From Candidatus Bathyarchaeota archaeon (GTDB lineage: Archaea; Thermoproteota; Bathyarchaeia; TCS64), in contig WJIV01000067.1 in assembly GCA_014730055.1 (NCBI GenBank), forward strand, positions 8,513 to 72,512: a DNA stretch of 64,000 nucleotides, given 5' to 3'. Positions within the stretch are counted from its first letter, which is position 1; each line of letters starts with the position of its first letter. Below the pieces are notes generated by a model. It had not been told where the DNA came from. It saw nothing but the letters and a program-made list of their open reading frames with translations, and did not search any database. The position numbers and the translations under genes were made by a program. This document shows, piece by piece, positions 8,345 to 34,084 of this stretch.

Positions 8345-8662
8345 ATGGAGAAAGAAGAATTCAAGAAACGTTTCCCAACCCTAGCGAAGGAAATCGAGGA
8401 AGGAGAGGGTAAAGCGGGACTAAATTTCCAAGTAGAAAAACCAGAGCCAAAAAGGAAGTTCGCCGGCTATGATCCTGACATAGTTGACTTTCTCCGGAGA
8501 TGCAATACTGAAGAAGAAGCATTAGAAATTATAGAATATATGAAAGACAGGGACGAGATAACCGACGAAGAAGCTAATCAATACCTAGAAAAACTGAAAG
8601 AAGAAGGACTCAGAAGCTTTGGGACCAAAAAAAGTCCAGGTTATTACGAGAAAGAAGGATAA
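8345..8662 (+). CDS. DUF2095-family small acidic/basic protein
   Basis: A 105-residue soluble protein. The segment KFAGYDPDIVDFLRRCNTEE, then the helical EEALEIIEYM, and the C-terminal RSFGTKKSPGYYEKEG match my recollection of the archaeal DUF2095 family, whose members have no known function. It has no membrane segment and no catalytic motif that I recognise. It lies 45 bases after glmU in the same direction and may be the last gene of that transcript. Confidence 0.65.
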   Translation: MEKEEFKKRFPTLAKEIEEGEGKAGLNFQVEKPEPKRKFAGYDPDIVDFLRRCNTEEEALEIIEYMKDRDEITDEEANQYLEKLKEEGLRSFGTKKSPGYYEKEG

Positions 8663-8788
8663 AACATAATAAAATTGGGGCTTATATTTTCCTTGTAGCT
8701 GTTTTTCCGAGTCATTATAACGGTTCATTTATTTCGCTCTATCCAATAAGTTTAAGGTACACAAAATCCCAACATATTCGGTGTATAC

Positions 8789-10000
8789 TTGGCAAAAACT
8801 GTAGGACTGGTAGGAAAAGCGAACGTCGGGAAAAGTACGTTCTTTGGAGCTGCTACTCTTAAGCCCGTTGAGATCGCAGGGTTTCCATTCACCACAATTA
8901 AGGCAGATAGAGGAATAGGGTATATTAGAGCAGCCTGCGTCTGCAGGGAACTTGAGGTGGAAGATAACCCCGTTAACAGTGCTTGTGTTAATGGCACCAG
9001 ACTGATCCCTGTTGATATAATAGATACACCCGGTCTAATTCCAGGGGCCCATCAAGGAAAGGGATTAGGAAATCAATTTCTCGATGAAGTGAGAAGAGCA
9101 GATGCATTAATAGTAGTAGCAGATGCTTCTGGCTGCACTGATATCAGCGGCCAGGTTTGTGATCCGATGACCCACGACCCAATTGAAGACGTCGAGATGT
9201 TCGAGGAGGAGTTCGATCTATGGCTATATTCTCTCATCTTAAAGGACTGGGACAGGATAACAAGGACAGCCCAGTCAAAAAAAGAACCATTAGAGAGACA
9301 TCTAGAGGAGAAACTTACTGGCCTAGGGATTAATAGGTTTCAGATAAAAGAAGCTGCAATGGCAGCAGAGCTGGATTCCTACAAAGCTAGCCACTGGGAA
9401 CCAGAAGAGATAAGAAAATTTGTCACAGAACTGAGGAAAACCAGCAAACCATTGATCGTAGCAGCCAATAAAGCCGATCGGGATGGCGCAGAGATTAACG
9501 TAGAGAGGTTAAGGGAGGCAGGCTACGAGGTAATACCAACTTGCGCTGAAGCCGAGTTAGCTCTTAGAAGAGCAGCCGAAGCAGGTCTCGTTGAATATAC
9601 ACCAGGAGATAGCAACTTTACGATCAATAACCCAGAAAAACTAAATGAAGCCCAGATAAAGGCTCTGGAAAGGATTAGAGAGAAAGTATTCGAGAAATGG
9701 GGTAATACAGGGCTCCAAGACGCACTCAATCAGTCATTCTTCAAGTTGCTTAACATGGTAATTGTCTACCCAGTGGAGGACTCAGATAAGCTAACAAACC
9801 ATCAGGGACAGGTCTTGCCGGACTGTTATCTGGTACCTAGAGGGACCACGGCTAAACAGTTTGCTGGAGAAATTCATAGCGATCTTCAGGAGGGCTTCCT
9901 GTTCGCGGTTGACGCTAGGTCAAAGAAACGTCTAGGAGATAGCTATATCCTTGAGGATAACGATATAATTCAGATAGTGTCGGCTAAAGGCCGAAAGTAG
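8789..10000 (+). CDS. YchF/OBG-family GTPase (archaeal redox-regulated ATPase type)
   Basis: A 403-residue TRAFAC-class NTPase. The P-loop GLVGKANVGKST is at residues 6-17, the switch region is DIIDTPGLIPGAH (residues 74-86), and NKAD occurs near residue 226 at the G4 position. The C-terminus is a TGS-like domain (VYPVEDSD to DNDIIQIVS). Archaeal members of this OBG/YchF group are thought to associate with ribosomes. The start is TTG. Eleven bases separate its stop from the ATG of the phosphoglycerate dehydrogenase gene, so the two may form an operon without an obvious functional link. Confidence 0.88.
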   Translation: MAKTVGLVGKANVGKSTFFGAATLKPVEIAGFPFTTIKADRGIGYIRAACVCRELEVEDNPVNSACVNGTRLIPVDIIDTPGLIPGAHQGKGLGNQFLDEVRRADALIVVADASGCTDISGQVCDPMTHDPIEDVEMFEEEFDLWLYSLILKDWDRITRTAQSKKEPLERHLEEKLTGLGINRFQIKEAAMAAELDSYKASHWEPEEIRKFVTELRKTSKPLIVAANKADRDGAEINVERLREAGYEVIPTCAEAELALRRAAEAGLVEYTPGDSNFTINNPEKLNEAQIKALERIREKVFEKWGNTGLQDALNQSFFKLLNMVIVYPVEDSDKLTNHQGQVLPDCYLVPRGTTAKQFAGEIHSDLQEGFLFAVDARSKKRLGDSYILEDNDIIQIVSAKGRK

Positions 10001-19959: not shown

Positions 19960-21198
19960 TCAGGCCCTTACTGTTCCTACGCCGATTAGTCTCCATCTAC
20001 CGCCCACTCGTCTACTGATGGCTACTCTGCTTCCGTCCTCAGCACATACAGGTATAGTAAGATCTAGATCCATCCAGTCTCCTCTAACAGTGGTAACGTC
20101 CCCCATAGTTTTCGCTGTTCCTACATTTAATAGCAATTTCTCCCCCCGAGCGATGCTGGACACCTTCTCCTCCTGTACCGTCCCCACTACAGTCTCAAAA
20201 AGTCTGTAATCTAGTGTGATTTGCTCCACGACAGGAGGCAAAGTACCTGGCTTTCCTACCAAATTTCCTACTAAACCGTCAGATTTTGTAACAGAGGGAT
20301 CAAGCATTGTCCCCATACCAGCCAAACCACCGGGTAAAGCTTCTTCCAGTGAATACCCACCAACCTGCAGGCTGGTAATTTCTGTGGACAACTCTCTTGT
20401 CTTAATTCTTCCCTTCTGTCTCTCTGGCAGGCCGGGCTTAATCTCTACTTCATCACCTAACTTGAAGCTACCCTGAGTAATTGAACCACCTAGGACACCT
20501 CCAACAAGGTCATCAATTGGAGTGCCTGGGCGATTTACGTCGAAACTACGCACAATATACATTCTGGGAGGGAGGTTTGGATCATGTGTAGGAGTAGGTA
20601 AATACTCTTCCATTGCTTGAATGAGGAGGTCAACGTTTACTACCTGTTGAGCTGAAACCGGGATAATTGGTGCGTTCTCAGCTATGCTGCCTTTGACGAA
20701 TTCCTTTATTTGATTGAAATTTTCAACTGCTTTCTCTCGATTGACGAGATCAATTTTGTTTTGAACTATTACCAGGTTCTTAAGGCCCACGGCTTCGATG
20801 GCTGCAAGGTGCTCCCTTGTCTGCGGTTGAGGGCATTCCTCGTTTGCTGCAATGACTAGAATCGCTCCGTCCATTACAGCCGCGCCGCTAAGCATTGTAG
20901 CCATAAGAATCTCGTGTCCTGGAGCGTCAACAAAGCTTACAGTTCTCTGTAACTCGGCTTCCTCGCCGCACATTGGGCACTGTTGACTTGAACAAAAACA
21001 GTGGGGCTCAGGGCAGTTAGGGCACTTGTAGAGCGCAGCATCAGCGTATCCAAGTTTAATGGTGATTCCTCTTTTTAGCTCCTCACTGTGACGGCTAGCC
21101 CATTCTCCTGTAATAGCTTGAACTAGTGTTGTCTTCCCATGATCTACGTGTCCAATGGTTCCAATGTTAATTTCCGGTTGACGTGGTAATCTTGCGAT
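19960..21198 (-). CDS. eif2g: Translation initiation factor aIF2 subunit gamma, likely non-AUG (ATC) start
   Basis: This is the GTPase subunit that carries initiator Met-tRNA to the small ribosomal subunit. The frame contains GHVDHGKTT (G1), the zinc knuckle YKCPNCPEPHC ... CPMC, DAPGHE (G3), NKIDLV (G4), then beta-barrel domains 2 and 3 ending GVGTVRA. The first ATG in frame is at 20973, inside the zinc knuckle and after the G1 motif, so it cannot be the start. Upstream, TAG occurs at 21211-21213 and no ATG, GTG or TTG lies between it and G1. GGGGAG (21206-21211) sits 7 bases before ATC at 21198. Starting there gives 412 residues, the normal length. Confidence 0.88.
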   Translation of the reverse strand: MARLPRQPEINIGTIGHVDHGKTTLVQAITGEWASRHSEELKRGITIKLGYADAALYKCPNCPEPHCFCSSQQCPMCGEEAELQRTVSFVDAPGHEILMATMLSGAAVMDGAILVIAANEECPQPQTREHLAAIEAVGLKNLVIVQNKIDLVNREKAVENFNQIKEFVKGSIAENAPIIPVSAQQVVNVDLLIQAMEEYLPTPTHDPNLPPRMYIVRSFDVNRPGTPIDDLVGGVLGGSITQGSFKLGDEVEIKPGLPERQKGRIKTRELSTEITSLQVGGYSLEEALPGGLAGMGTMLDPSVTKSDGLVGNLVGKPGTLPPVVEQITLDYRLFETVVGTVQEEKVSSIARGEKLLLNVGTAKTMGDVTTVRGDWMDLDLTIPVCAEDGSRVAISRRVGGRWRLIGVGTVRA

Positions 21199-21203
21199 GC
21201 TTG

Positions 21204-21211
21204 ATCTCCCC
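21204..21211 (-). promoter_or_regulatory. Shine-Dalgarno sequence that decides the aIF2 gamma start
   Basis: GGGGAGAT on the minus strand is a good match to the 16S anti-SD and has 7 bases between GGGGAG and the ATC at 21198. It begins at the G of the in-frame TAG stop codon. It is the best evidence that translation begins at a non-canonical codon here. Confidence 0.6.
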
Positions 21212-21240
21212 TATTTGCTAGTGCAATCAGTACGGATTCT

Positions 21241-21253
21241 TATCTTAAATACA
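21241..21253 (-). promoter_or_regulatory. TATA-like promoter of aIF2 gamma
   Basis: The minus strand reads TGTATTTAAGATA about 45-55 bases before the proposed start at 21198. Transcription would start near 21221, leaving a leader of about 20 bases that contains the Shine-Dalgarno motif. This agrees with the proposed start. Confidence 0.45.
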
Positions 21254-21337
21254 TATCCCCAGAAATGAATTTAATAATAATCACATGAATACAGTTATAT
21301 CCAATAGTCAAGAAATCAATACAAAAAGGTGGATAAA

Positions 21338-21538
21338 ATGTCAGAAATGATCAAAATCAGTATTCCCAAGGATATCTACGAGAAAATTAAAGACAGAATC
21401 CAAGGGACAAGTTTTGAAAGCGTGGATGAATATGTTGCTCTTATGCTGGAAAACGAATTTCCAGAAGAGACACAGTACAGCAAAGAAGAAGAAGAACTCA
21501 TAAGAGAGCGCCTTAGAAGATTAGGATACATCGAGTGA
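21338..21538 (+). CDS. Ribbon-helix-helix (CopG-like) small protein
   Basis: A 66-residue protein. The N-terminal strand KISIPKDIYEKI followed by two helices (FESVDEYVALMLENEF) is the ribbon-helix-helix layout of small archaeal and bacterial DNA-binding regulators. The C-terminal tail EELIRERLRRLGYIE is charged. I chose the ATG at 21338 because GGTGGA lies 4-9 bases upstream; a GTG nine bases earlier is part of that site. The stop is 7 bases before the TTG start of sat, so the two genes are co-transcribed. It may regulate sat or itself; no operator is obvious. Confidence 0.75.
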   Translation: MSEMIKISIPKDIYEKIKDRIQGTSFESVDEYVALMLENEFPEETQYSKEEEELIRERLRRLGYIE

Positions 21539-21545
21539 ACTGGCT

Positions 21546-22688
21546 TTGAGGCCCCACGGAGGAAGGCTGGTAAACTGTAGAGCAGAAATAAACGACATCC
21601 CCAAACTATCTAATGAAGCCCGGGAGTATACGAAGATTTCCGTATCTCATGAACAAAGGCTTGATCTGGAAAACGTGGCATGTGGACTTTACAGCCCATT
21701 GACAGGTCCCCTTCTTCAAAACGACTACCTCACGGTACTTGCTAAAGGTAGACTCCTAGACGATACCCCGTGGACCATTCCCATACTACTTGATGTGGAG
21801 GAGGACAAGAGCAGAGAGATCGCAGCGGGAGACCGGGTGTCAATAGCCTCATCTGGTGATACTTTCGCTTTTTTAGACGTGGAAGAAAAATATTCATGGG
21901 ATAAGAAGACTCACTGCCAGCGAGTATACAAGACCTGTGACACCAGACACCCGGGGATCAATACCGTAAACCAAATGAAACCCGTGTTAATAGGTGGGAC
22001 CCTTATACTTGTAAAAGAGCACCCTGGAAAATTTCCGAGATACAGGCTCAAGCCGACTGAGACTAGATTCTTATTCCGAGAAAAAGGCTGGAGAACAGTT
22101 GCTGGTTTCCAAACTAGAAATGCACCTCATATGGGACATGAGTACGTACAAAAAACAGCATTAGCCTTCGTTGACGGCCTATTCATAAATCCTTTAATAG
22201 GAAAAAAGAAGAAGGGTGACTTCACTGACGAGGTTATAATTGATAGTTACGAGGCTCTTTTCCAGAATTACTTTTTGAAAAACAGTGCTACTTTGGTAAC
22301 TTTAGAGATGGAGATGCATTATGCGGGGCCTAGGGAAGCTATTCACCACGCCATTATTCGAAAGAATTACGGATGTACACATTTCATAGTGGGAAGAGAC
22401 CACGCTGGAGTAGGCGATTATTACGGTCCTTTCGAAGCACAGGAAATTTTCGAGCATTATCCTGATCTTGGGATTATCCCCATATTCTTCAGGAATTTCT
22501 TCCACTGTAAAAAATGCGGTGGACCCCAAAATGACAAGATTTGCCCTCATCCAGTTGAAGATCATATAATATATCGAGGACGCGTAATGAGGGACCAACT
22601 ATCAAATGGAGATAGACCCAGCCAAGACCTAATGAGACCTGAAGTTGTTGATGCTATTCTCACCCACGACACCCCGTTTGTAGAGTAA
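21546..22688 (+). CDS. sat: Sulfate adenylyltransferase (ATP sulfurylase)
   Basis: A 380-residue single-domain ATP sulfurylase that forms adenylyl sulfate (APS) from sulfate and ATP, or the reverse. The signatures are FQTRNAPHMGHEYVQKTAL (nucleotide loop with HxxH), LEMEMHYAGPREAIHHAI and GRDHAGVGDYYGPFEAQ. The C-terminal CKKCGG ... CPH looks like the zinc-binding insert of archaeal/bacterial homomeric Sat. No APS kinase domain is attached and no APS reductase or APS kinase gene is in the window, so the direction cannot be told. The start is TTG, 7 bases after the ribbon-helix-helix gene. Confidence 0.93.
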   Translation: MRPHGGRLVNCRAEINDIPKLSNEAREYTKISVSHEQRLDLENVACGLYSPLTGPLLQNDYLTVLAKGRLLDDTPWTIPILLDVEEDKSREIAAGDRVSIASSGDTFAFLDVEEKYSWDKKTHCQRVYKTCDTRHPGINTVNQMKPVLIGGTLILVKEHPGKFPRYRLKPTETRFLFREKGWRTVAGFQTRNAPHMGHEYVQKTALAFVDGLFINPLIGKKKKGDFTDEVIIDSYEALFQNYFLKNSATLVTLEMEMHYAGPREAIHHAIIRKNYGCTHFIVGRDHAGVGDYYGPFEAQEIFEHYPDLGIIPIFFRNFFHCKKCGGPQNDKICPHPVEDHIIYRGRVMRDQLSNGDRPSQDLMRPEVVDAILTHDTPFVE

Positions 22689-33227: not shown

Positions 33228-33515
33228 TTACTTAAAATCTTGAAGACTTTTCTCGAACTCTGATAAGAATTCATCCAACTTACCGTCTGCTCTTTCAGCA
33301 GCCTTCTTAAGGACCTCAAGGTGGTCCCCTTCCTCTTTTAAGCGGATGAAGAGCTTGGATCTATCCATTAGGGGGTGTTGTTTACTGTATCCTGCCATCT
33401 CAACCTCGGGCTCCTCAAGCAGGTTAGTCTGCAGGAAGTTCAGCAGTGTATGGCCCTCTCCGCTAAAGTCGAACTCGATATATTTTTCATCCTGCTGGGA
33501 GATTTTTATTTTCAA
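33228..33515 (-). CDS. rpoL: DNA-directed RNA polymerase subunit L (Rpo11)
   Basis: A 95-residue subunit that pairs with RpoD to assemble RNA polymerase (Rpb11/alpha-like). FSGEGHTLLNFLQTNLLEEPEVEMAGY is split here into two motifs: GHTLLNFLQ and EVEMAGYSKQHPL, both diagnostic. The C-terminal helix dimerises. It starts with TTG at 33515, which overlaps the csl4 stop by four bases (TTGA), so translation is coupled. Confidence 0.93.
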   Translation of the reverse strand: MKIKISQQDEKYIEFDFSGEGHTLLNFLQTNLLEEPEVEMAGYSKQHPLMDRSKLFIRLKEEGDHLEVLKKAAERADGKLDEFLSEFEKSLQDFK

Positions 33516-34084
33516 ACTAACTCCTCCTCACCATAGCTCTTGGCTGTTTTTCTTCTCTCAACTCTTCCACAGTCCGGGCATGTAAGTTTCCCGCCCCGCT
33601 TCTCTAGCAGGCCCCCACATCTTGTGCAGTAAGCATATATTACGCCGTATTCTGATCCTGCCATGCTGGTCTGATTGAGCCTGTTTTTTGTGTTGACGAT
33701 CTTTCCTTTAATGATGTCGCCACTCCTCACTGCCATGTCAATGTTCTTTATGTAATCCTTGCTGATGTCGCTGATATGTATGACACCGCTAATTGTGGGA
33801 AAGTTCTCCTTGCCCTGGATCATGAATATATCGATTCTAGCGTCTTTCCGGGCAACACTACCGACCTCGGCTACTACTTCCATGCCATCCTCTGGGTACA
33901 AAGGCTTGGGGGTCTTCTTCTTGACAGAGATAGCCCTTCTCCTGACATCAATCCTAGTCTTCCCTATCTCATTGGACCTAATCTCCCCGTCATGCTGGTA
34001 GGTGCCATCACCCTCGTTGAATTCCTCTATTACAGCCAGCTTATCTCCGGGGAATACTTCTTGGTTACGTAGATTTCTTTGCAT
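33512..34084 (-). CDS. csl4: Exosome RNA-binding subunit Csl4
   Basis: A 190-residue cap protein of the archaeal RNA exosome. It has an N-terminal beta domain (FPGDKLAVIEEFNEGDGTY), an S1-like RNA-binding domain (MEVVAEVGSVARKDARIDIF, VIHISDIS) and a C-terminal zinc ribbon CTRCGGLLEKRG ... CPDCGRVE. It selects RNA for the Rrp41/Rrp42 core, whose genes are not here. Overlap with rpoL is a known archaeal arrangement. Confidence 0.93.
   Translation of the reverse strand: MQRNLRNQEVFPGDKLAVIEEFNEGDGTYQHDGEIRSNEIGKTRIDVRRRAISVKKKTPKPLYPEDGMEVVAEVGSVARKDARIDIFMIQGKENFPTISGVIHISDISKDYIKNIDMAVRSGDIIKGKIVNTKNRLNQTSMAGSEYGVIYAYCTRCGGLLEKRGGKLTCPDCGRVERRKTAKSYGEEELV

Follow-up and report, generated by a model that had tools for sequence, protein, structure and literature searches.

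A conserved AUH codon as the probable translation start of aIF2 gamma in one order of Bathyarchaeia

Background

Bacterial infC, the gene for initiation factor IF3, is an initiation factor gene with a non-canonical start codon, ATT in E. coli and ATC in Streptomyces (PMC5472188, excerpt). In bacteria, IF3 acts against non-canonical starts and thereby holds down its own production from ATT, and the infC start is often misannotated (PMC5472188, excerpt). In the same excerpt, Streptomyces sigR, with a GTC start repressed by IF3, is a further case of a non-canonical start that lowers output. In archaea, start codons are given as AUG, GUG and UUG in a recent review (PMC7531240). In S. solfataricus, aIF1 disfavours non-canonical starts (PMC6237735, excerpt) and aIF2 binds 5'-triphosphate mRNA ends via its gamma subunit (PMC3936769, excerpt). 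Among start-codon switches from 61,358 ancestral AUG starts, one led to AUU and two to CUG (PMC5622118, excerpt). The open PMC literature, represented mostly by titles and the first lines of abstracts and without most subscription papers, yielded no report of a conserved AUH start in archaea or on any aIF2 gene.

Here we describe aIF2 gamma genes in one order of Bathyarchaeia that very probably begin with AUC, AUU or AUA (AUH; ATH in the DNA). Like infC, this would be an initiation factor gene with an AUH start that mismatches the CAU anticodon at the third base. However, aIF2 gamma is unrelated to IF3: it is a GTPase whose task is to deliver Met-tRNAi, and it belongs to an archaeon, where the known discriminator of start codons is aIF1. 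Since the protein is the aIF2 gamma GTPase and not an IF3 homologue, the gene does not belong to the infC system, although it may function in a similar way. Feedback is known for infC and would be only a possible parallel in aIF2 gamma. The resemblance to sigR would lie in lowered output, although sigR is bacterial, has a different codon and does not encode an initiation factor. Archaeal aIF2 gamma genes with ATG, GTG or TTG are of the same family and encode the same N-terminus, and differ in their ordinary start codon.

Results and discussion

The aIF2 gamma gene of the window

The DNA analyzed, hereafter the window, is a stretch of 64,000 nucleotides from contig WJIV01000067.1 of a Candidatus Bathyarchaeota archaeon (assembly GCA_014730055.1). 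On its minus strand, the aIF2 gamma frame is open from 21210 to 19960, is closed upstream by an in-frame TAG (21211 to 21213) and reads GGG AGA TCA AGC ATC GCA AGA TTA CCA. The translated frame contains both GHVDHGKTT, the G1 P-loop (21127 to 21153, minus strand) that served as the anchor for alignment, and CPNC..CPMC; we take a P-loop GHVDHGKT together with a zinc knuckle of paired CPxC motifs to be the hallmark of aIF2 gamma. The profile TIGR03680 (archaeal aIF2 gamma) scores 637.8 bits on the window protein versus a curated cut-off of 514.5. An earlier note on this sequence had pointed out that no ATG, GTG or TTG precedes the P-loop in this frame, and this is the case: the first such codon lies 79 codons into the stop-to-stop frame, past the P-loop.

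The same note had proposed ATC at 21198 as the start of a protein of normal length. From this codon (21196 to 21198, minus strand), the coding sequence (19963 to 21198, minus strand) runs for 412 codons to a TGA at 19962 to 19960. The 412-residue product aligns with the solved eIF2gamma 1kk0 (410 aa) over residues 3 to 411, and because its residue 3 pairs with residue 4 of 1kk0, the ATC start would yield a normal N-terminus. The N-terminal peptide predicted from this start is the Met-initiated MARLPRQPEINIG, and MARLPRQPEINIGTIGHVDHGK would be expected with or without the Met. Upstream of the ATC, the signals that the note had listed are in place. The Shine-Dalgarno (SD) sequence GGGGAG (21206 to 21211, minus strand) ends 7 bases before it; a duplex of GGGGAGA with the presumed 16S 3' end has an energy of -7.2 kcal/mol. 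A TATA-like TTTAAG (21244 to 21249, minus strand), matching a loose motif, lies 51 bases upstream. Transcription would be expected to start about 25 bases downstream of TTTAAG, near 21223, giving a leader of roughly 20 to 30 bases. Of the window's ORFs of 90 codons or more (62, largely non-overlapping), aIF2 gamma is the only clear gene with such a start gap; the next two candidates, 8578 to 8859 (without a canonical start) and 33244 to 33582 (the first at 34), both overlap other ORFs.

A column of AUH codons across one order

The three best relatives of the window in the genome collection are Bathyarchaeota MAGs, and aIF2 gamma is present in 228 of the 256 genomes of the best relative's class (E <= 1e-120). 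We compared the 5' ends of 111 of these 228 genes, drawn from the listed, mostly higher-scoring matches, a sample that is not random. Dropped before counting were L001 to L003 (same genomes as L018 to L020), L015 to L017 and L021 to L025 (partial or paralogous), L077 (contig end), L193 (an aIF1A fragment at a contig end), L277 to L279 (partial or other EF1A-like matches) and any second aIF1A copy listed without a locus. All of the 28 nearest genomes fall into a single Bathyarchaeia order of 32, the other four of which had no match at E <= 1e-120. With the window, the 29 genes of this order form one supported clade (SH-aLRT 99, and 100/100 in a tree with six outgroup rows).

Counting 15 codons back from the G of GHVDHGK leads to ATC, ATT or ATA in 27 of the 28 order genomes with the gene, as well as in the window. 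Counted over the 29 genes, this column holds ATC 14 times, ATA 8 times, ATT 6 times and GCC once. The GCC, in L048 (G227), adjoins an ACG, and the nearest relatives of this gene (L045 and L049) have ATC; it is either another near-cognate start or a MAG error. Homologues with an ordinary start at the same site would, according to the earlier note, refute its proposal. Taken literally, such homologues do occur outside the order, where exactly this column holds ATG in L053, L055 and L064 and TTG in L076, and within the order L033 has an ATG two codons upstream. The non-canonical codon is nevertheless common to the close kin.

An SD match at an aligned spacing of 6 to 10 precedes the column in all 29 genes (28 with ATH and the GCC of L048). 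As a control, of the 918 ATH codons that lie in frame within these genes, 64 are preceded at this spacing by an SD of at least -6 kcal/mol strength. Spacing in other genes of the order is similar for EF1A (mode 8, in 14 of 22) and aIF2 beta (mostly 7 to 10, in 20 of the 25 counted); aIF1A, aIF1 and aIF2 alpha have no sharp spacing peak, and this control is not uniform. The nearest match to the loose TATA-like motif lies at -43 to -59 in all 29 genes, with TATATG of L039 the farthest.

Reconstruction on the tree sets the column apart from its surroundings. Its first two bases, AT, changed once, while the third base changed at least six times among C, T and A and never to G; in the flanking codons (-3 to -1 and +1 to +3), the first two bases changed 5 to 14 times each. 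AUG is one mutation away from AUH, yet it is absent through these third-base changes. An internal isoleucine of a longer protein would be expected to leave the same third-base pattern, but such a protein would have no start upstream in most of the genes: 18 of 29 have no ATG, GTG or TTG between the upstream stop and G1. The start codon is thus conserved and very probably real, and the comparison strongly supports the initiation at ATC that the note had proposed. We consider it highly probable that the AUH column is the true start of aIF2 gamma in this order.

aIF2 gamma starts in the rest of the class and phylum

Elsewhere in the class, CTG stands at the column in 14 of the 83 genes examined outside the order (L057, L058, L059, L060, L063, L068, L071, L081, L084, L108, L118, L119, L124 and L125). 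Six of these have no ATG, GTG or TTG within -16 to +3 codons and eight have one, which in three is a GTG at -3. An SD at a spacing of 6 to 9 precedes the codon in 14/14 CTG genes versus 2 of 56 in-gene CTG codons. On the tree, the CTG state requires 10 changes, and a repeated origin of weak starts is therefore probable. In all 14 genes the CTG is followed by A (CTGA). Some relatives have aIF2 gamma directly behind a gene whose stop overlaps its start; the overlap reads ATGA in L053 and CTGA in L084, where the longest upstream frame, which resembles ribosomal protein eS6, ends at that TGA. L065, a relative of L060 and L063, has CCG at the column. In L103 (G057), the likely ATG of aIF2 gamma lies, judged by eye, one base out of frame beside a run of A, which looks like an indel in the assembly.

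Outside the class, 63 of 65 genomes of the phylum could be anchored, from high scorers that are not a random sample, and every one of the 63 has ATG (25), GTG (21) or TTG (17) between 20 codons upstream and 5 codons downstream of the column. In L283, which is among them, the column holds CTG and a GTG follows two codons further on.

A proposed weak start on an initiation factor gene

We propose, as the more probable reading overall, that aIF2 gamma is translated from an AUC start on a short-leader mRNA, a start kept weak by selection, with an output that is throttled and sensitive to initiation stringency. A short-leader mRNA would be made from the gene's own TATA promoter, and GGGGAG would position the 30S subunit for initiation at AUC (21198 to 21196). 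Ordinary Met-tRNAi would presumably pair with AUC through the first two bases. Since AUH, and never AUG, is kept throughout the order, the codon is probably under selection as a deliberately weak start, and aIF2 gamma output would then be throttled. Its synthesis would also be unusually sensitive to the stringency of start-codon selection on the 30S subunit, to which aIF1 and the aIF2 complex itself would contribute. As both IF3 and aIF1 act against non-canonical starts, AUH-started aIF2 gamma should follow the balance of aIF1 and ternary complex. We hold this regulatory sensitivity, argued by analogy, tentatively, and with slightly more doubt than belief.

Self-regulation of the infC type is plausible by the same analogy. 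More ternary complex would favour weak codons by mass action, however, which counts against repression of AUH by aIF2 gamma. The binding of 5'-triphosphate mRNA ends by the gamma subunit, together with the short predicted leader, may provide a second loop. It is possible, though we are inclined to doubt it, that these genes carry an archaeal start-codon sensor on an initiation factor, independent of infC, with AUH order-wide and repeated CUG versions in sister lineages. With such a rare start, the gene may be a means by which the cell limits or senses how accurately it selects start codons. If real, it would be a natural reporter of archaeal start-codon discrimination and a convergent parallel to infC.

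The alternative that survives best is that translation does begin at AUH, with no regulation attached to it: start selection would be relaxed in the order, and a fixed weak start would suit the dosage of aIF2 gamma. We consider this unlikely, although CTG starts lend it some support. CTG is the apparent start of trxB-like genes in two genomes (L409 in G233 and L428 in G237), neither with an ATG, GTG or TTG before GxGxxG, and of three nop10-like genes (L236, L239 and L247 in G241 to G243), while the other 11 of the 14 nop10-like genes found have TTG or ATG. CTG probably also starts a myo-inositol-phosphate synthase gene in G233, and a leuA-like ORF there has an ATC candidate start that is ambiguous by eye. 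These four gene names are putative assignments from motifs. With CTG starts in trxB, nop10 and the probable synthase gene, non-canonical starts are not confined to aIF2 gamma, and start selection may be laxer in the order generally. CTG also recurs at the aIF2 gamma column in the class, and 38 of the 63 anchored phylum genes outside the class, from the non-random high scorers, lack an ATG near the column and have GTG or TTG instead.

Against relaxed selection, ATG, GTG or TTG starts 141 of 141 intact genes examined in the order for five other translation factors, counting any such codon located from 12 codons before to 4 codons after the expected start: aIF2 beta (29/29), aIF1 (27/27), aIF2 alpha (29/29), EF1A (27/27) and aIF1A (29/30, the thirtieth being a contig-end fragment and second copies lying outside the count). 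Further, AUG was one step off and never reached through the third-base changes, and switches from AUG to AUU are extremely rare generally (1 in 61,358; PMC5622118, excerpt).

Wider screens gave few convincing cases. Screening 400 kb of G233 and 400 kb of G237 by coding score (346 and 340 ORFs) produced many doubtful flags, judged by eye; trxB (CTG, both genomes) and the probable myo-inositol-phosphate synthase (CTG, G233) were convincing. A reciprocal-best comparison of the two genomes (202 pairs) flagged 53 members in G233 and 58 in G237, among which trxB and aIF2 gamma of G233 were convincing and most others were antisense-like or had a Met soon after. An automatic survey of locus flanks was swamped by antisense ORFs and its counts were set aside; it flagged 20 of 28 aIF2 gamma ORFs and 103 of 636 others, the latter by eye nearly all shadow frames or near an ATG. 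Among the genes and part-genome screens examined, a conserved candidate AUH start was found only in aIF2 gamma.

Other start positions, initiator tRNA and assembly error

Initiation elsewhere is very improbable, whether at an internal canonical codon or at position -2, which is TCA in the window and ATH, ATG or TTG in some relatives. Eleven genes of the order have a canonical codon between the upstream stop and G1: at -32 (L026), at -17 and +9 (L048), at -2 (ATG in L033, TTG in L037), as GTG at -3 inside the SD (L045 and L049, both also with ATG at +9), as TTG at +3 or +4 (L036 and L041) and at +11 (L038, L040 and L042). Some of those at -2, -3, +3 and +4 could be used despite poor SD spacing. 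Given the TATA-like matches at -43 to -59, upstream codons such as that of L026 should be off the mRNA. Position -2 is favored by L033 and L037, and the NCBI entries P0007 and P0017 appear to place their M there. However, the position is variable (5 of 29 begin with AT), its SD spacing would be about 0 to 4 nt, and a stop stands there in L039 (TAA AAG ATA) and L036 (TAG ATT ATA), so no start more than one codon upstream is possible in these two genes. In L039, a five-codon frame (ATG GAA AGG GGA GGA TAA) overlaps the SD and ends two codons before the ATA, as seen by eye. Stop-codon read-through was also considered as the source of the N-terminus and rejected; the upstream stops of the order vary in identity (TAA, TAG and TGA) and position (-2 to -39 codons).

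An internal start is suggested by many database entries that begin internally, but it would remove the P-loop or the strand before it. In 44 of the 120 top database homologues listed, the start was placed at a later codon, within or beyond the P-loop, and GHVDHGK is missing as a result. The entry P0022 is 96% identical over the 81% of the query covered and starts at residue 80 of the frame. Six entries begin MYI or MYL, which would fit the ATG of a TATA-like box ATGTATWTAAG. The NCBI-held entries P0077, P0007 and P0017 have M where relatives' DNA has ATA or ATC, suggesting, as judged from the DNA of relatives, that a pipeline may already have used such starts. If the AUH start is real, automatic annotation cuts off the P-loop of a universal gene in this group, or runs through its promoter.

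A special initiator tRNA whose anticodon reads AUH is more improbable still. An initiator signature, GGGCTNATAACCC, had 35 matches spread over 23 of the 32 genomes; of 30 signature loci, 15 were tRNA-Met with CAT (14 genes, two loci overlapping), and in this limited search of 32 genomes none of the nine GGGCTNATAACCC matches with GAT, TAT or AAT was a tRNA gene. No tRNA was recovered at seven of the CAT matches, the signature was absent from nine genomes, and divergent or intron-bearing tRNAs would be missed by it. Another signature, CGGGCTNNNAACCCG, matched 9 of 32 genomes with 0 of 11 matches reading CAT and was uninformative.

Sequencing or assembly error, which the earlier note had named as the main alternative, or a broken gene is excluded for practical purposes: the window is a single sequence, but 27 other genomes are alike, with mostly intact ORFs and a conserved SD and TATA-like box.

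Neighboring genes

On the plus strand of the window, a small protein and a second gene lie divergently from aIF2 gamma at 21308 to 22688; we take them to be a ribbon-helix-helix-like protein and an ATP-sulfurylase-like gene. A stretch resembling the small protein, as seen by eye, adjoins aIF2 gamma in L001.
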